Position numbers and translations under genes: made by a program. A model generated the notes under the pieces. The model saw nothing but the letters and a program-made list of their open reading frames with translations, was not told where the DNA came from and did no database searches. A DNA stretch of 37,710 bases from a virus, in the IMG/VR virus record IMGVR_UViG_3300046001_001376, positions 1 to 37,710 of that record; one strand, written 5' to 3'. This document shows positions 1-37,710 of this stretch, one piece after another; within the stretch, counting starts at the first letter, position 1; each line of letters starts with the position of its first letter.

Positions 1-76
1 GGCGATAATTTTAGGTACGGCAGTATCCACGGCGGTAATTTATTTTATCTATCAAATGTTTCACTGGAGAGATTAA
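1..76 (+). CDS. C-terminal fragment of tail-anchored membrane protein
   Basis: Only the last 24 codons are present, because the window begins inside the gene. The reading frame starts at base 2 and gives a hydrophobic segment (AIILGTAVSTAVIYFIYQMF) followed by HWRD and a TAA stop. The stop overlaps the ATG of the holin gene (TAATG). The full-length gene is at 36345-36866 at the other end of the window, and this stretch is identical to it. Confidence 0.85.
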   Translation, partial: AIILGTAVSTAVIYFIYQMFHWRD

Positions 77-486
77 TGCTTGGACTTGACGCGCTACTTA
101 CCGTTGGCGGTAAACTAATTGACAAACTAATTCCTGACCCTGAAGCTAAAGCTAAAGCACAAATGGATTTGGCTAAGATGGCGCAAGACGGCGAACTGGC
201 TAAAATTGCCAACGACGCCGACTTGTACAAGACTGAGCAAAACAATCTGACGCAGCGTATGCAGGCTGATATGGCGTCCGACAGCTGGCTGTCGAAGAAC
301 ATTCGCCCGTTAACGCTGATCTACATTCTTGTTGCGTATCTTGCGCTGGCTATCCTTGACGCGTCTGCGCTTGATATTGCGGACAGTTTTGTGCAACTGC
401 TAGGCCAATGGGGTATGTTGGTTATGTCCTTTTATTTTGGCGGGCGCACACTAGAAAAGATTATCGGCACAAAAAATGACAAATAA
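76..486 (+). CDS. Holin of the 3TM / gene-transfer-agent type
   Basis: A 136-residue inner-membrane protein expected to form the lesion that lets the endolysin reach the cell wall. The N-terminal half (about 1-75) is charged and helical, with PDPEAKAKAQMDLAKMAQDG typical of the GTA_holin_3TM family. Two hydrophobic segments follow, roughly 79-96 (LTLIYILVAYLALAILDA) and 108-125 (LLGQWGMLVMSFYFGG). The ending TLEKIIGTKNDK is also usual for the family. The gene sits directly before the endolysin and overlaps it by 11 bp, and its ATG overlaps the stop of the upstream membrane protein. The protein is identical to the right-end copy despite a dozen silent base changes. Family assignment is from remembered family features. 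Confidence 0.85.
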   Translation: MLGLDALLTVGGKLIDKLIPDPEAKAKAQMDLAKMAQDGELAKIANDADLYKTEQNNLTQRMQADMASDSWLSKNIRPLTLIYILVAYLALAILDASALDIADSFVQLLGQWGMLVMSFYFGGRTLEKIIGTKNDK

Positions 487-898
487 CTTTACCCTTGCAG
501 AACTGACGCACACGGATCACCGCGCGTTTGACAACACGCCGAACGAAGCGGAACGGGCTAACTTGCAACGACTGGCGGAGTTTCTGGAGTCGGTCAAGAC
601 GACTTTGGGTAATAAGCCAATCATCGTCAACAGCGCCTTCAGAAGCAAACAGGTAAACGATGCTGTTGGCTCTAAAGACAGCAGCCAGCATCGCAACGGT
701 TGCGCTGCCGACATTCGTGTGCCTGGTATGAAGCCCGACGAAGTTGTGCGGGCTATCATTGCCGCTAAACTGCCGTTCGATCAGATAATCCGTGAGTTTG
801 ACGCTTGGACCCATGTAAGTATTCCTAACACCGCAACGGCTAAACCGCGCGGGTCTAAGTTAATCATTGACCGCCAAGGGGCGCGAGCTTTTGTTTAA
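476..898 (+). CDS. Endolysin, M15-family peptidoglycan peptidase
   Basis: A 140-residue zinc peptidase expected to cleave peptidoglycan stem peptides during lysis. The M15_3 signature is complete: SAFRS at 53-57, then SQHRNGCAAD, in which H72 and D79 are likely zinc ligands, and WTHVSI, in which H113 is the third ligand with E107 as candidate catalytic residue. There is no signal peptide, so export depends on the adjacent holin. The start overlaps the holin stop by 11 bp and no strong Shine-Dalgarno is visible, suggesting coupling. This copy has R27 and E35 where the right-end copy has L27 and Q35; neither is in the active site. The 3' end overlaps a convergent minus-strand gene by 35 bp. Confidence 0.92.
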   Translation: MTNNFTLAELTHTDHRAFDNTPNEAERANLQRLAEFLESVKTTLGNKPIIVNSAFRSKQVNDAVGSKDSSQHRNGCAADIRVPGMKPDEVVRAIIAAKLPFDQIIREFDAWTHVSIPNTATAKPRGSKLIIDRQGARAFV

Positions 899-1064
899 TG
901 CTTTGCGGCACTTTAGGCTTGGGACACCAACCTAAACAGTCGTCGCTCCAATTGCCTACAATCAACACGCCGCCAGGATTAAGCAGCAACAAGCTGACTG
1001 CTCTTGGCGGCGGTTCATTGTCAGGGTCACGAAAATACAGTTCGTCAGTCGTTATCTGCTTCAT
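864..1064 (-). CDS. Small conserved phage protein, unknown function
   Basis: A 66-residue protein of unknown function and the last gene of the leftward early cassette. It has the pattern LYFRDPDNEPPPRAVSLLLL followed by NPGGVLIVGNWSDDCLGWCPKPKVP, which I recall from small proteins of many proteobacterial phages. It is probably a compact beta-rich fold. No membrane segment or catalytic motif is visible. Its 3' end lies 35 bp inside the endolysin gene on the opposite strand, and no terminator is evident between the two. Its start overlaps the upstream gene by 20 bp. Confidence 0.75.
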   Translation of the reverse strand: MKQITTDELYFRDPDNEPPPRAVSLLLLNPGGVLIVGNWSDDCLGWCPKPKVPQSIKQKLAPLGGQ

Positions 1065-7772: not shown

Positions 7773-8378
7773 ATGAAAGTCTTAATCGCGTGTGAATACT
7801 CTGGGCGTGTGCGCGACGCCTTTATAGCCGCCGGTCACGATGCTATGTCGTGCGACTTGTTACCTACTGATTCACCAAGACCGCACTATCAGGGCAATGT
7901 ATCTGACATTATTAATGATGGCTGGGATTTAATGATTGCGCATCCTCCCTGTACTTACCTGTCTGTTAGCGGTATGCACTGGACGACGCGCGGCCTGCGT
8001 GACCCACAGCTGACAGAGGATGCGCTGGACTTTGTGCGCTTGCTGCTGGCGGCGCCTATCGAACGGATTGCGCTGGAAAATCCGATTAGCGTTATCTCTA
8101 GCCGCATTCGCAAGCCTGACCAAATTATTACGCCGTACCAGTTCGGACATGACGCCAGCAAGAAAACCTGTCTTTGGCTTAAAAACCTGCCTTTGCTTAC
8201 GCCGACAGATATTATCGAACCGCGCATAGTAGATGGCAAAAAGCGTTACGGCAACCAGACTGACAGCGGGCAAAACAAATTGCCGCCGTCTGCTGACCGC
8301 TGGAAAATCCGCAGTGCTACTTATGAAGGTATTGCGCAAGCAATGGCCGACCAATGGGGTGGCTATGCTCTGGCTTGA
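7773..8378 (+). CDS. Short cytosine-C5 methyltransferase-like protein
   Basis: A 201-residue protein related to DNA cytosine-5 methyltransferases. It begins MKVLIACEYSGRVRDAF (SAM-binding motif I region) and has the catalytic-loop motif HPPC at 57-60 followed by TYLSVSG. ENP at 102-104 corresponds to the ENV motif. Full C5 enzymes exceed 300 residues and carry a target-recognition domain and C-terminal motifs IX-X, which are not evident here. It could be a minimal modification enzyme protecting phage DNA from restriction, or a derived non-catalytic relative. No ribosome site is visible upstream. The end overlaps the polymerase start by 14 bp. Confidence 0.8.
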   Translation: MKVLIACEYSGRVRDAFIAAGHDAMSCDLLPTDSPRPHYQGNVSDIINDGWDLMIAHPPCTYLSVSGMHWTTRGLRDPQLTEDALDFVRLLLAAPIERIALENPISVISSRIRKPDQIITPYQFGHDASKKTCLWLKNLPLLTPTDIIEPRIVDGKKRYGNQTDSGQNKLPPSADRWKIRSATYEGIAQAMADQWGGYALA

Positions 8379-10327: not shown

Positions 10328-12598
10328 ATGAAGTTTTTAGATTATCTCATAAATTTGGCGCCTGAAGGCGAAACCGCGTTAATCGTGCGCCAGAAGCCCA
10401 CCGGTAACGAACTGCAATTCCATGCCGACGGTGCTATCAAATGCACATGGCCGGCCTATCTGCCGACCAAACAAATGAAGGAAGGCGCGTGGTACGGCAA
10501 CACCGCATCCTTCATCATTGACCGTTTCAAAGACGGCAAGGTGTCCGCCAGCGCGGCCAATTGCGAGTATGTGCTGGTTATGATGTTGGACGATATTGGC
10601 ACAAAGTCCGCCGTGCCACCGTTGCCGCCGACGTGGATAATGGAAACGTCAGAAGGGTCATTTCAGTGGGGCTATGCGTTCAGCGATCAACCGACCAAAT
10701 CCGAGTTCAGCGCCGCCATCAAGGCTATCGCCGCTGCCGGCTACACCGACCCAGGCGCTACCAATGCAGTGCGTAACTTCCGTTTGCCTGATAGTGTGAA
10801 TTTAAAGCCAGGGCGTGACGGTTTCAAGGCCAAGTTGGTCGAGTTTCACCCTGAGCGTGAATTCACCCTTGCCGAGATATGCACTGCTTTAAACGTGACG
10901 CCGTTGGAGGCCAGCGACGCCTTGCGCCCTATCCGGTTGGCTGACGATGGCGCTGACGACGTGCTGGCGTGGCTGTCTGCTAATAGCATGGTGTTATCAA
11001 AACCAAACGGCGAAGGCTGGGCAGGCGTGATTTGTCCGAACAATGCCGAGCATACCGACGGCAATCCCGAAGGCCGCTATATGCCGGCCAATCGTGCGTA
11101 CTGCTGCCTGCACTCGCATTGCCTTGAATTAGACTCGACCGTGTTCCTAAAATGGGTCGCTGACCAGGGCGGTCCGAATCATGAATCAGGTTTGCGTGAT
11201 GAATTGCTGGCTACCGTGATGGACTCGGCGTTGTCTAAAATTCAGCCTACCGCAGAATTTCCCGATGTTGCCAAAAAGATTATCGCCGAAGTCGAACGCA
11301 AGGAGCTTGGCCGAATCGAAAAGGAAGACTGGTACGACCGTTTCGCCTATATACAAACCGACGACGGTTATTTTGACATGCAAGACCGGCGCGAGATTGG
11401 CCGCAGTACGTTTAATGCGCTGTTCCGGCACATTGGTTGCCTGTCTATTCATAACGGCCAAAAAATAGAAGCATCAGTGTGTTATGACCAAAACCGACAG
11501 GCCAAAGGCGCTAAGGCGTTGGTCGGCATTACCTACGCCGCCGGCGAATCAGTGTTAACGGCGCGTGATGGGTTAGCCTACGGCAACCGCTGGCGCGACG
11601 CGCGCCCGCAACCGGTGCCTGGCGACGTGTCCCTATGGCTCGCGCACGTCGAACGCATGGTTCCGATTGACTATGAGCGTGAACACCTGCTAAACGCGCT
11701 GGCCTATAAAGTACAAAACCCGAATAAGAAAATCAATCACGCTATCTTGGTCGGCGGGCATCCTGGCAGCGGTAAAGACACCATGCTTGCGCCGTTCTTC
11801 TGGTCTATAGGTGGCAAGGATAAGATGAATTGCTCGCTTGTAAAGAACGAAGACCTAAGCAGTCAATGGGGATATTCACTTGAATGTGAAGTGATGGAAA
11901 TTGCCGAATTGCGTCAGGCCGAAGCGAAAGACCGGCGCGCGCTTGAGAACTCATTAAAACCTATCATTGCCGCGCCGCCGGAGCTATTGCAAGTCAACCG
12001 TAAAGGATTGCATCCCTATATGGCGCTGAATCGCGTGTTTGTTGTGGCATTCTCGAATGAGCGTGCCGCTATCAGTTTGCCGTCCGATGACCGTAGATGG
12101 TTTTGCATATGGGCAGACGCTGCGGGTCCCTTGCCAAACGCGCTTGAAATTTGGAATTGGTATTTCGCGGGCGGGTTCGCGGCGGTCGCCGCTTGGTTAC
12201 ATTCGCGTAATGTGTCTGCTTTCAATCCGTCCGCCGCGCCTCCTATGACAGAGGCCAAAATGATTATGATCGAGCAGGGCAGGAGCAGCGCTGAGTCTTA
12301 TTTGGTAGAGATAATTTCGCGCCGCTTAGGTGAATTTGCTGTCGGCGCTATAGCGTCGCCATTTTATAGTTTGTGCGATAAACTAGCGGGCAGCGCGCCT
12401 ACTGGCGTCAAGGTGTATCAGGCGGCTTTGCTGCACGCATTGAAAGAAGCGGGATGGGTGGACATGGGGCGTTTAAAATCGCGAGAATTAGACACCAAAA
12501 AACAGATATTTTGCGCGCCTGAATTGGTCAACATGAGCAAATCAGAATTGCGCCGGCTAGTGGAGGATGCGCCACCGCCGATGCGGATAGTGAAATAA
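10328..12598 (+). CDS. RepB-type primase fused to SF3-like helicase
   Basis: A 756-residue replication protein. The N-terminal part resembles RepB/AEP primases: LVMMLDDIGTK near residue 80, then WIMETSEGSFQWGYAF and a basic region NFRLPDSVNLKPGRDGF near 150-170. A central region with C-rich elements (VICPNNAEHTDGN and AYCCLHSHC) may bind zinc. The C-terminal ATPase has Walker A GGHPGSGKDTM near 475, an acidic EVMEIAELRQ segment near 520, and FVVAFSNERAAISLPSDDRRW as the DUF5906-type sensor region. It probably primes and unwinds for the family A polymerase upstream. GGAG precedes the ATG at good spacing. It is the last gene of the rightward early operon. Confidence 0.88.
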   Translation: MKFLDYLINLAPEGETALIVRQKPTGNELQFHADGAIKCTWPAYLPTKQMKEGAWYGNTASFIIDRFKDGKVSASAANCEYVLVMMLDDIGTKSAVPPLPPTWIMETSEGSFQWGYAFSDQPTKSEFSAAIKAIAAAGYTDPGATNAVRNFRLPDSVNLKPGRDGFKAKLVEFHPEREFTLAEICTALNVTPLEASDALRPIRLADDGADDVLAWLSANSMVLSKPNGEGWAGVICPNNAEHTDGNPEGRYMPANRAYCCLHSHCLELDSTVFLKWVADQGGPNHESGLRDELLATVMDSALSKIQPTAEFPDVAKKIIAEVERKELGRIEKEDWYDRFAYIQTDDGYFDMQDRREIGRSTFNALFRHIGCLSIHNGQKIEASVCYDQNRQAKGAKALVGITYAAGESVLTARDGLAYGNRWRDARPQPVPGDVSLWLAHVERMVPIDYEREHLLNALAYKVQNPNKKINHAILVGGHPGSGKDTMLAPFFWSIGGKDKMNCSLVKNEDLSSQWGYSLECEVMEIAELRQAEAKDRRALENSLKPIIAAPPELLQVNRKGLHPYMALNRVFVVAFSNERAAISLPSDDRRWFCIWADAAGPLPNALEIWNWYFAGGFAAVAAWLHSRNVSAFNPSAAPPMTEAKMIMIEQGRSSAESYLVEIISRRLGEFAVGAIASPFYSLCDKLAGSAPTGVKVYQAALLHALKEAGWVDMGRLKSRELDTKKQIFCAPELVNMSKSELRRLVEDAPPPMRIVK

Positions 12599-14628: not shown

Positions 14629-14931
14629 TTAATAGTAGATAGCAGCGCGTATTTCTGCGTGCGTTGCGGGGCGGTCATTCAGTAACATTTGATACGCAAA
14701 TTCGTTTTCTTCGCGGTAGCCAAACGTTCCGTGCGTTTCAAGCGCGTCAATGTACGCATAAGAAATCTGGTCAGCGATCATGTCATATACGCCGGTATTG
14801 TGCATTACCGCTTCGGCGTCGGCGCGCTGCAAAACCGGAATAGTTTCGGACGTCCATTCTCCGCCGATATTGACGTCGACCGCTTCAAGTACTGTTTCGT
14901 AAATTACGCCGTTAATTTGAATAGTGATCAT
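14629..14931 (-). CDS. Small phage protein, first gene of second leftward operon
   Basis: A 100-residue protein (MITIQINGVIYETVLEAVDV to AEIRAAIYY). The N-terminal part is a beta hairpin-like segment, the rest is acidic and rich in tyrosine and alanine. A GAAAGG ribosome site lies six bases upstream, and the gene follows the promoter at 14985-15013 with a leader of about 45 bases. Function is unknown; the position suggests a host-takeover gene. Confidence 0.7.
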   Translation of the reverse strand: MITIQINGVIYETVLEAVDVNIGGEWTSETIPVLQRADAEAVMHNTGVYDMIADQISYAYIDALETHGTFGYREENEFAYQMLLNDRPATHAEIRAAIYY

Positions 14932-14984
14932 TTTAAACCTTTCAGATTGTGCAATTTGCCCGATGCGTTCTGCACATGCAAAGA

Positions 14985-15013
14985 ATTATCAAGCATATGA
15001 ATTTAGCTGTCAA
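14985..15013 (-). promoter_or_regulatory. Leftward sigma-70-like promoter of second early operon
   Basis: On the minus strand TTGACA (15013-15008), a 17-base spacer and GATAAT (14990-14985) give a near-consensus promoter. Transcription would begin near 14978 and run through eight overlapping genes to the terminator at 12601-12625. Confidence 0.75.
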
Positions 15014-15033
15014 TCAATAATTTGCAATTATTT

Positions 15034-15065
15034 TTGCGGACAATGTGGGGTAATTGCGGACAATG
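15034..15065 (+). repeat. Pair of direct repeats TTGCGGACAATG
   Basis: TTGCGGACAATG occurs at 15034-15045 and 15054-15065, 20 bases apart. The same core with T for C recurs at 15121-15132, inverted at 15247-15258, and with one further change at 15396-15407. An inverted, less exact form is at 15410-15421. Confidence 0.9.
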
Positions 15066-15120
15066 ATTTGGGGCGCGGTTGCCCACGTCAAACGCAAGCG
15101 GTGGTGCGGGTTTTGGCTAT

Positions 15121-15258
15121 TTGTGGACAATGTACCCATAAAAAAGTTAATACCTGATTTTTATAGGATTACTGTATAGGCAAACAGTACTGTATAAGCT
15201 AAAAAGTACTGTACGCATAATGGCAGCGATTTAAATCATATGGGTACATTGTCCACAA
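15121..15258. repeat. Perfect 20-bp inverted repeat with AT-rich core
   Basis: TTGTGGACAATGTACCCATA (15121-15140) is exactly inverted at 15239-15258, separated by 98 AT-rich bases. Each arm contains a TGTGGACAA motif like a DnaA box. The core has ACTGTA at 15171, 15189 and 15208, spaced 18 and 19 bases, like iterons. Confidence 0.95.
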
Positions 15259-15430
15259 TGACCCACAAGTTCCATTCTGATAACTTCTGCATATCTTGCA
15301 CCGAACGCAATAAATCGATCGCTGGCGCGAACAAAAACCACCAGGCAAATAATGCTATTCTGATAACTGTTTGCAAAAGCGCCCGCGCCCAATATTTGTG
15401 GACAATCCACATTGCCCACATATCACAATA

Positions 15431-15489
15431 ACATCATGCTAGTCTGACATCATGCCAGTCTGACATGTTAGTGAGCACTTACTAACATG
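15431..15489 (+). repeat. Tandem 16-mer followed by 9-bp hairpin
   Basis: ACATCATGCTAGTCTG (15431-15446) is followed directly by ACATCATGCCAGTCTG (15447-15462), differing at one base. CATGTTAGT (15464-15472) and ACTAACATG (15481-15489) then form a perfect 9-bp inverted repeat around an 8-base loop. Such an arrangement would suit a regulator-binding site. Confidence 0.85.
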
Positions 15490-15502
15490 CCATTGTGCTA
15501 AC

Positions 15503-15522
15503 TAGGGTCTGACCCTATTTTT
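15503..15522 (+). terminator. Small rightward terminator-like hairpin
   Basis: TAGGGTC-T-GACCCTA followed by five T. Realistically a 4-5 bp stem with a 3-5 base loop. It could stop rightward transcripts that leave the repeat region before the terminase genes. Confidence 0.5.
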
Positions 15523-15534
15523 GCCGCCGGCGGA

Positions 15535-15550
15535 GGGCAGGGGGGGAGGG
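15535..15550 (+). other. G-tract cluster, possible G-quadruplex
   Basis: GGG, CA, seven G, A, GGG gives four runs of three G with very short loops on the plus strand, directly after a CCGCCGGCGG palindrome. It lies about 70 bases before the small terminase gene. A role in packaging-site recognition or in origin control is possible but unproven. Confidence 0.5.
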
Positions 15551-15622
15551 CCTTGCGCGGAAGTGTGTGGCTGGGATGGAAGCAGAAACATTTTTTTATT
15601 TTTTTGGTATATACTCCAAGCC

Positions 15623-16099
15623 ATGTTTCATTCACTACCCCTTACTATTCGTGAGGTCAAAGCGACTGAGGCGCGATTGCAGGCTATTTACGAAGCTGCC
15701 GCGCTTGGGCTTAAAGGCGACGCTTTGGCGCTTGCATCAGGAATGCTTCCTAGTGAATATAGGCAGCTGTGCCAACTTGACCCGTTAGCCGAGCTTGCTA
15801 TGCTTAAAGGCCGCGCTGACAGTGAGATCGAAGCATCATCACAGTTACGCGAATCAGCCAGGAACGGCGACGCCAAGTCCGCCTTAGCAATCCTCCAGCA
15901 CGTCCACGGTTGGACAGCCAAGCAGGAAATCTCCGTCAACGTACAGAACATCAGCATCACGCAGGCGCTTGAACAGGCGCAGCAGCGTGTCATCGAAGGT
16001 CAATTTACTGAGGTACTAGATGGCCCAACAGCCAATATACTCGCCGGACGAAGAACAACTGCTAATGACGCGGTTATGGTCACCGGAACTAAAGAATAA
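15623..16099 (+). CDS. Terminase small subunit
   Basis: Starting at ATG 15623 (MFHSLPLTIREVKATEARLQ) the protein has 158 residues, close to P22 gp3 in size. It is helical, with a possible DNA-binding part (AALGLKGDALALASGMLPSEYRQL, about 26-50) and SARNGDAKSALAILQHVHGW typical of phage small terminases. It should recognise the packaging site and stimulate the large subunit encoded next. The open frame upstream to 15521 is G-rich and unlike the rest, so I reject it. No clear Shine-Dalgarno is present; a TATACT at 15610-15615 could be a -10 box giving a very short leader. It overlaps the large-subunit gene by 80 bp. Confidence 0.82.
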   Translation: MFHSLPLTIREVKATEARLQAIYEAAALGLKGDALALASGMLPSEYRQLCQLDPLAELAMLKGRADSEIEASSQLRESARNGDAKSALAILQHVHGWTAKQEISVNVQNISITQALEQAQQRVIEGQFTEVLDGPTANILAGRRTTANDAVMVTGTKE

Positions 16100-36344: not shown

Positions 36345-36866
36345 ATGATAGAAATAGCCGTCGCTTTTGGTATTGCTAAGGCGGCGGTTGCTGGCGTTAA
36401 GGAAGCTATTGCCCTCGGCCATGAAATACAGGACTGTTACCATGACATAGCCTCGTTCTTTAACGCGCAAGGTGAGATTGAGGCGGCGGTCATTCAACAG
36501 AAAGCAGATAAAGCCGCAGGTAAAGTACCTGAAAAGTCTGCTACCACCGAAGCGTTAGACGCTATGTTCGCGTCGCGCCAGATGGCTAGGTTAGAAGTCG
36601 AACTGCGTGAAATGTTGGTCTATAACTCTGGCAATGAGTCTGGCCTGTACGAAGAAATGTGCCAGCGCAGGGCGGCAATTGTGCAGGAACGTAAAGAAGC
36701 AATTGAAGAAACTGCCCGCGCGGAACGTATGCGGTTAGCAGCTATCCGACGCAAGAAAGAAGAACGCATACAAACCATACAGAACTGGATGGCGATAATT
36801 TTAGGTACGGCAGTATCCACGGCGGTAATTTATTTTATCTATCAAATGTTTCACTGGAGAGATTAA
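36345..36866 (+). CDS. Tail-anchored coiled-coil membrane protein
   Basis: A 173-residue protein. Residues 1-30 form a hydrophobic/amphipathic helix (IEIAVAFGIAKAAVAGVKEAIALG). About 80-145 form a long charged coiled coil (LEVELREMLVYN and RKEAIEETARAERMRLAAIRRKKEERIQTIQ). Residues about 147-168 form a single membrane span followed by HWRD. It lies just before the holin, and its stop overlaps the holin start (TAATG). A role in lysis, for example as an unusual spanin-like component, or in the virion is possible. No classic Rz/Rz1 pair is seen. Confidence 0.7.
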   Translation: MIEIAVAFGIAKAAVAGVKEAIALGHEIQDCYHDIASFFNAQGEIEAAVIQQKADKAAGKVPEKSATTEALDAMFASRQMARLEVELREMLVYNSGNESGLYEEMCQRRAAIVQERKEAIEETARAERMRLAAIRRKKEERIQTIQNWMAIILGTAVSTAVIYFIYQMFHWRD

Positions 36867-37276
36867 TGCTTGGACTTGACGCGCTACTTACCGTTGGCGG
36901 TAAACTAATTGACAAATTAATTCCTGACCCTGAAGCTAAAGCTAAAGCACAGATGGATTTGGCTAAGATGGCGCAAGATGGCGAACTGGCTAAAATTGCC
37001 AACGACGCCGACTTGTACAAGACTGAGCAAAACAATCTGACGCAGCGTATGCAGGCCGATATGGCGTCCGACAGCTGGCTATCAAAAAACATTCGTCCGT
37101 TAACGCTAATCTACATTCTTGTTGCGTATCTTGCGCTGGCTATCCTTGACGCGTCTGCGCTTGATATTGCCGACAGTTTTGTGCAACTGTTAGGCCAATG
37201 GGGTATGTTGGTTATGTCCTTTTATTTTGGCGGGCGCACATTAGAAAAGATTATCGGCACAAAAAATGACAAATAA
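36866..37276 (+). CDS. Holin of the 3TM type, right-end copy
   Basis: Encodes exactly the same 136 residues as the gene at 76-486 although 12 bases differ, all at silent positions. Domain features are those given for the left copy. In the circular genome there is probably only one holin gene, represented here by two strain variants. The ATG overlaps the stop of the complete upstream membrane protein. Confidence 0.85.
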   Translation: MLGLDALLTVGGKLIDKLIPDPEAKAKAQMDLAKMAQDGELAKIANDADLYKTEQNNLTQRMQADMASDSWLSKNIRPLTLIYILVAYLALAILDASALDIADSFVQLLGQWGMLVMSFYFGGRTLEKIIGTKNDK

Positions 37277-37688
37277 CTTTACCCTTGCAGAACTGACGCA
37301 CACGGATCACCGCGCGTTTGACAACACGCCGAACGAAGCGGAACTGGCTAACTTGCAACGACTGGCGCAGTTTCTGGAGTCGGTCAAGACGACTTTGGGT
37401 AATAAGCCAATCATCGTCAACAGCGCCTTCAGAAGCAAACAGGTAAACGATGCTGTTGGATCTAAAGACAGCAGCCAGCATCGCAACGGTTGCGCTGCTG
37501 ACATTCGTGTGCCTGGTATGAAGCCCGACGAAGTTGTGCGGGCTATCATCGCCGCTAAACTGCCGTTTGATCAGATAATCCGCGAGTTTGACGCTTGGAC
37601 CCATGTAAGTATTCCTAACACCGCAACGGCTAAACCGCGCGGGTCTAAGTTAATCATTGACCGCCAAGGGGCGCGAGCTTTTGTTTAA
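37266..37688 (+). CDS. M15-family endolysin, right-end copy
   Basis: A 140-residue peptidase that differs from the left copy only by L27 for R27 and Q35 for E35, both in the N-terminal helix region and away from the zinc site (H72, D79, H113). Five further base differences are silent. It overlaps the holin stop by 11 bp. As with the holin, it is probably the same gene seen in a second variant. Confidence 0.92.
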   Translation: MTNNFTLAELTHTDHRAFDNTPNEAELANLQRLAQFLESVKTTLGNKPIIVNSAFRSKQVNDAVGSKDSSQHRNGCAADIRVPGMKPDEVVRAIIAAKLPFDQIIREFDAWTHVSIPNTATAKPRGSKLIIDRQGARAFV

Positions 37689-37710
37689 TGCTTTGCGGCA
37701 CTTTAGGCTT
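37654..37710 (-). CDS. 3' end of the 66-residue minus-strand gene, cut by window end
   Basis: These 57 bases equal positions 864-920 and encode the last 18 residues (KPKVPQSIKQKLAPLGGQ) plus the stop of the small protein described at 864-1064. The rest of the gene lies beyond the window edge, or equivalently at the left end of the circular genome. Confidence 0.8.
   Translation of the reverse strand, partial: KPKVPQSIKQKLAPLGGQ

Follow-up and report, generated by a model that had tools for sequence, protein, structure and literature searches.

Where does this virus begin to copy its DNA, and which protein finds the place? The question is raised by a repeat-packed region (14932–15622) in the window, by which we mean the whole stretch of 37,710 nucleotides analyzed here, the 37.7-kb genome of a podovirus whose portal is of the P22 type. 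The region lies between a leftward ORF (14629–14931) and the rightward terS/terL genes starting at 15623, of which terS (15623–16099, + strand) was identified from gene order and an annotated relative as the first late gene on the right side. A first-pass annotation of this DNA had proposed a replication origin that either recruits host DnaA or serves the phage's own initiator through a look-alike motif. From the analysis below, we concluded that the region is very probably the start of DNA copying in this freshwater virus of bacteria, and we consider it likely, judging from sequence comparison and analogy, that the origin is read through 9-bp iterons by the wing of the phage's own primase-helicase, in a P4-like mechanism whose specificity co-diversifies.

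The nearest named relatives of the window were Phage DSL-LC05, which is predicted to be virulent and to infect a Pseudomonadota host (PMC10611076), and two Manatee Spring podoviruses. A blastn comparison of the window with named phages gave no match, a genome scan returned a single short match in an uncultured bin, with no host and no clear prophage, and no integrase was recognized among the proteins scanned. We also observed that the two ends of the window (1–920 and 36791–37710) carry the same sequence with 19 mismatches over 920 bp, which makes it probable that the record represents a genome, circular or permuted, whose assembly drew on mixed strains. Separately, an ORF at 7773–8378 matched a PHROG annotated as DNA methyltransferase (phrog_757, E 6e-67) and overlaps the DNA polymerase ORF at its listed 5′ end.

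The array layout recurs across the family

All of the motif copies reported earlier (15034, 15054, 15121, inverted at 15247, a near copy at 15396 and a weak inverted one at 15410) were present. As 9-bp iterons, they correspond to TTGTCCGCA at 15035–15043 and 15055–15063 (both − strand), TTGTCCACA at 15122–15130 (−), 15249–15257 (+) and 15397–15405 (−), and a weak copy, TTGCCCACA, at 15412–15420 (+). To these we added a tandem TGACCCACA iteron at 15259–15267 (+), 10 bp past the 15249 copy, which the first-pass annotation had missed; the same TTGTCCACA/TGACCCACA pairing occurs in loci L167 and L175. Sites with at most one mismatch numbered seven in the 691 bp, whereas shuffled sequences averaged 0.54 and never exceeded 4. 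The TTGTCCACA iterons at 15122 and 15249 lie within the left (15121–15140, +; TTGTGGACAATGTACCCATA) and right (15239–15258, −) arms, respectively, of a perfect 20-bp inverted repeat whose arms stand 98 bp apart. We confirmed this repeat and its excess over chance, the longest in 40 dinucleotide shuffles being 11 bp; once mismatches were allowed, it grew to 30-bp arms at 87% identity. Enclosed by the inverted iterons is an AT-rich centre of 98 bp (15141–15238), a putative unwinding region. When the repeat was sought in relatives, the arm motif TTGYGGACAATGTRCCCAT was found in 12 other viral contigs, 10 of which had the same array layout, while the remaining two (L174 and L178) appeared to be chance matches. 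In L167 and L175, which also use TTGTCCACA iterons, a conserved TACCCAT (ATTTGTGGACAATGTACCCAT) follows the arm and adjoins the AT-rich centre.

On the left side of the region, a sigma-70-like leftward promoter (TTGACA-17-GATAAT, 14985–15013, −) matched 11 of 12 positions, and this site and the gene order are consistent with the proposal that the region divides early from late transcription. The GC skew suggested as a check on the origin followed gene direction and gave no independent support at this locus.

We gathered about 300 viral loci by scans for terL and for the primase-helicase. A conserved design emerged in approximately 170 related P22-portal-type podoviruses: their divergent intergenic region, which precedes terS, holds 9-bp iterons, both tandem and inverted, to either side of an AT-rich centre. 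Of the loci gathered, nearly all have short 9-bp repeats before terS that point away from the AT-rich gap on both sides and are often spaced by exactly 9 bp, giving contiguous copies in, for example, L136. With automatic iteron calls, a (−)…(+) pair 45–160 bp apart was found at 145 of 168 loci, with a mean gap AT content of 0.66, compared with 55 of 168 loci and a gap AT content of 0.46 for the opposite arrangement. Iteron spelling differed by lineage and comprised TTGTCCACA, TAGCCAACA, CTGCCAACA, TGACCCACA, TTGCCTACA, TTGCTGACA, TGGCACACA and TTATACACA, as well as TGACTACA, TGACCCAAA, TGACCGAAA, TTGCCCAAA, TTGCCAATA, TTGCTTATA, TGACACATA and TGATACATA. Some phages mixed variants and others carried strings of identical copies, as if arrays were homogenized within a phage. 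Other tandem arrays had expanded in the same intergenic region in L044, L136, L143, L153, L208 and L265, with units that included GACCGGCTG, CTGCCAACA (eight copies), GCCTGCCT, CAGTCAG and CCGACCGCC.

Within the AT-rich centre, three ACTGTA words had been read as iterons. All three are present (15171, 15189 and 15208), yet they are better explained chiefly by a LexA (SOS) box: the first and second together make up an exact LexA-type palindrome, TACTGTATAGGCAAACAGTA, at 15170–15189, which agrees at 12 of 12 positions with CTGT-N8-ACAG within TACTGTATATATATACAGTA and is the only such match in the window. Searches for repeat families and inverted pairs revealed further degenerate LexA-like half-sites (TACTGTATAAGC…AAGTACTGTA) at 15188–15213. 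Boxes with at most one mismatch occurred in 29 of 181 distinct family regions, compared with 0–1 in shuffles and at most 5 for palindromes with permuted half-sites. In 20 of 28 distinct cases, and on several iteron backgrounds, the box lay directly between a (−) and a (+) iteron; other palindromes occupy the centre in other relatives. Control of lysogeny by LexA is not the first interpretation to suggest itself, since no integrase was recognized among the proteins scanned, the genome scan yielded no clear prophage and DSL-LC05 is predicted to be virulent. The position of the box suggests control of phage replication, of which we found no description in the literature searched, and LexA may gate the origin, or a promoter within it.

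A further palindrome, CATGTTAGTGAGCACTTACTAACATG (15464–15489), is of a type seen upstream of terS in relatives. Palindromes of this TTAGTNAGYRCTNACTAA type, single or in arrays, were observed in the window and in L039, L042, L046, L051 and L171–L176, at a median of 178 bp upstream of terS, and their strict form was present in 23 of 181 distinct regions compared with 0–1 in shuffles; they are possibly a late-gene operator or a packaging element. Another element, AATCCCTTAC, was common to L039, L046, L051, L055, L131 and L148, where it sits at the site presumed to be the leftward early promoter; some of these relatives have it at the terS promoter as well.

Iteron bases co-vary with residues of the primase-helicase wing

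The proposed initiator is a 756-aa primase-helicase (DUF5906, NrS-1-like; 10328–12598, +). DUF5906 lies in its helicase domain, and the N-terminus gave a weak RepB_primase match below the curated cut-off. An AlphaFold model of the protein had a mean pLDDT of 76.6 and a pTM of 0.40, at which the packing of domains along the whole chain is unreliable. In the model, the C-terminus runs helix, strand, helix, helix, strand, wing, strand, helix; residues 717–724 form a hairpin between strands 711–716 and 725–729 (pLDDT about 83–87). This strand-wing-strand of the predicted C-terminal winged helix (residues 711–729) is encoded at 12458–12514 (+), with the K718 codon at 12479–12481 and the R720 codon at 12485–12487.

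We first labeled phages by whether CCNACA or CCNAAA iterons dominated, and found residue 720 to be the most informative primase column: all 37 ACA phages had Arg there, and none of the 45 AAA phages did. The rule then held in iteron classes outside this training set. Iterons were called blind to the protein, with A fixed at bases 7 and 9 and base 8 limited to A, C or T. Among 120 distinct pairs with automatic calls, Arg720 was present if and only if iteron base 8 was C (66/66 vs. 0/54), A at base 8 was paired with Gly, Ser, Lys or Pro at residue 720 (39/39), and T with Ala, Ser or Thr (15/15), a one-to-one co-variation of residue and base. Column 720 carried 96% of the base-8 label information, compared with 55% for the next primase column, and was the only one of the 756 columns with disjoint residue sets between the base-8 classes. 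The best columns of TerS, TerL and DNA polymerase reached 0.39, 0.47 and 0.46, respectively. A second correspondence linked Lys718 to T at iteron base 4 (32/33), and the best primase columns for bases 2, 3, 4 and 8 all fell within residues 714–723.

Every confident call (158/158) agreed with the residue-720/base-8 rule. When weak calls were included, 196 of 202 agreed, the six exceptions being among the 44 weak calls, and at least four of these (L009, L027, L066 and L073) were plain motif miscalls for which the true iterons are known. The window itself, with its seven iterons, scored 6.97 in automatic calling, just under the threshold of 8, and we included it manually. On a tree of primase residues 1–650, which leaves out the wing, the base-8 label switched about 10 times, with 8 of the switches forced by supported branches. 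The most similar pair with contrasting labels, L274 and L291, had primases that were 98% identical over residues 1–650 and nearly identical over the rest, differing at residues 713–724 (LGRVASSDYPS and CGRLKSRDYDT, respectively) and at a few residues up to about 745, with the last 13 residues identical again; L274 uses TGACCCAAA iterons and L291 uses TTGTCCACA.

The primase had at first seemed to be refuted as the binder by primases 97–98% identical that carried different iterons, all of which, as it turned out, share CCNACA. These iterons vary at bases 1–3 and 6, and we therefore take those bases not to be set by the primase. Sliding 60-aa identity windows along the primase gave no peak because the iteron labels were too fine, a matter that the base-by-base analysis resolved. 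Among the leftward ORFs, we found no class-specific DNA-binding gene that tracked iteron type beyond kinship.

Candidate readers of the iterons and a proposed mechanism

The proposal that replication starts with host DnaA bound to the TTGTCCACA repeats draws on the fact that TTGTCCACA is one base off TTATCCACA, and some relatives do contain TTATACACA or TTATCCACA. Since iteron sequence differs between lineages, however, a conserved host protein such as DnaA is not the common reader: in relatives that share the layout, the iterons are TGACCCAAA, TTGCCAATA or TGATACATA, which are not DnaA boxes, the switches track a residue of the phage primase-helicase, and TTWTNCACA boxes were not conserved across relatives. 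The E. coli DnaA-box consensus is TTATNCACA, unlike the CCNACA pattern of the window's phage clade, in which base 5 is fixed as C and base 6 varies. The earlier argument from the actinobacterial DnaA box also fails on taxonomy, given the Pseudomonadota host predicted for DSL-LC05 (PMC10611076). We therefore regard DnaA recruitment as highly improbable, and the other half of the first-pass proposal, an own initiator using a look-alike motif, as well supported. Binding of the arrays by TerS as a pac site for headful packaging would fit their place immediately upstream of terS in a phage with a P22-type portal; at the same 79 loci, though, the best TerS column explained 39% of base 8 compared with 97% for primase residue 720, and we find this reading barely credible.

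The co-variation could also arise with no contact at all, if recombination carried the 3′ end of the primase gene and the nearby intergenic DNA together. The two are neighbors, the primase C-terminus being the part of the gene closest to the origin, so that a degree of co-inheritance through linkage is to be expected, and in switched pairs identity declines from the C-terminus toward the intergenic DNA. Linkage leaves unexplained why column 720 alone separates the classes while flanking C-terminal columns are far weaker; moreover, the ends of the L274 and L291 proteins become identical again beyond their differing wings, and Arg opposite a G:C pair matches usual protein–DNA recognition. Linkage as the sole explanation is very unlikely. 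Somewhat less so, yet still improbable, is that the iterons are operators for divergent early and late promoters, bound by the primase-helicase or another phage regulator, with the origin elsewhere. They do lie between divergent genes and close to a good leftward promoter, and in three relatives (L051, L080 and L155) a further pair of copies sits approximately 50–60 bp upstream of terS. Against this, the matched protein is a primase-helicase and no transcription regulator, and inverted arrays flank an AT-rich centre in the same layout as the P4 ori. Autoregulation may exist alongside origin function.

A replication origin is thus well supported by the family-wide layout and by the primase co-variation, from which we infer origin activity. 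In the mechanism that we propose, the wing of the C-terminal winged helix would bind the 9-bp iterons; the co-variation predicts that base pair 8 is read by Arg720 and base pair 4 by Lys718. If P4 alpha is a guide, oppositely oriented iterons would load helicase to the left and right of the AT-rich centre; the centre would melt, and the same protein would prime it. Iteron spelling would drift and be homogenized within each phage while the wing changes alongside, so that each lineage would come to hold its own initiator–origin pair. In the window and many relatives, the host LexA box in the centre could hold back the origin itself, or else a promoter inside it, until the SOS response sets in. 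More tentatively, we suggest that in this widespread group of phages without a recognized integrase, a LexA site in the origin melting region gates replication by host DNA damage, while iterons and wing, tied by a simple residue-to-base code, diversify together into many origin types incompatible with one another.

Comparison with known initiators

Phage-specific initiator–iteron pairs, as in the window's family, are also known from lambda O and its ori. The lambda ori lies inside gene O, whereas the arrays described here are intergenic, about 2.4 kb downstream of the initiator gene: the sites fall at 15.0–15.4 kb and the primase gene ends at 12598. With the NrS-1 primase-polymerase and D5-type helicases, the protein shares DUF5906 and a weak match to PDB 6k9c/6k9e (E 0.49); a difference is that we found no iteron origin described for NrS-1 in the literature consulted. 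In its apparent union of an AEP primase with an SF3 helicase and a winged helix, the protein recalls pRN1 ORF904 and the Bordetella phages BIP-1/BPP-1. A 2014 study of pRN1 and the Bordetella phages did not find an iteron origin; its authors put forward a stem-loop carrying “not yet identified sequence motifs,” leaving open how AEP-like primase/SF3 helicase/winged-helix proteins find their origins (PMC4234260). In the window's family, by contrast, the motif would be the iterons, and more than 100 natural initiator–origin pairs give a legible code (residue 720 with base 8, residue 718 with base 4). With such a code, origin recognition can be put to a direct test using short DNAs and a single small domain, origins could be located by sequence in phage genomes from metagenomes, and there is a model for how replicons turn incompatible.

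The closest likeness is to P4, whose alpha protein binds TGTTCACC repeats via a winged helix, then unwinds and primes (PMC4234260). In the P4 record, we found TGTTCACC repeats 9–11 bp apart in both orientations, with ori between leftward and rightward genes, and the window and its relatives likewise have short repeats at such spacings in both orientations between divergent genes, resembling the type 1 repeats of P4 ori/crr. Like P4 alpha, the primase-helicase appears to carry primase, SF3 helicase and, at its C-terminus, a winged helix on a single chain, as judged in part from the AlphaFold model. No sequence similarity to P4 alpha was detectable (hhalign probability 0.5%), and because homology was not found we class the protein as working alike and not as a member of the alpha family. 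The P4 primase is of the TOPRIM type, whereas that of the window appears AEP/RepB-like (a weak match), and P4 has a separate crr, whereas in the window's family iterons and recognition wing have diversified together. By this analogy, the region most likely serves as an origin that has an initiator of its own, akin to P4 in its arrangement and in the way it works while being no sequence relative of P4.
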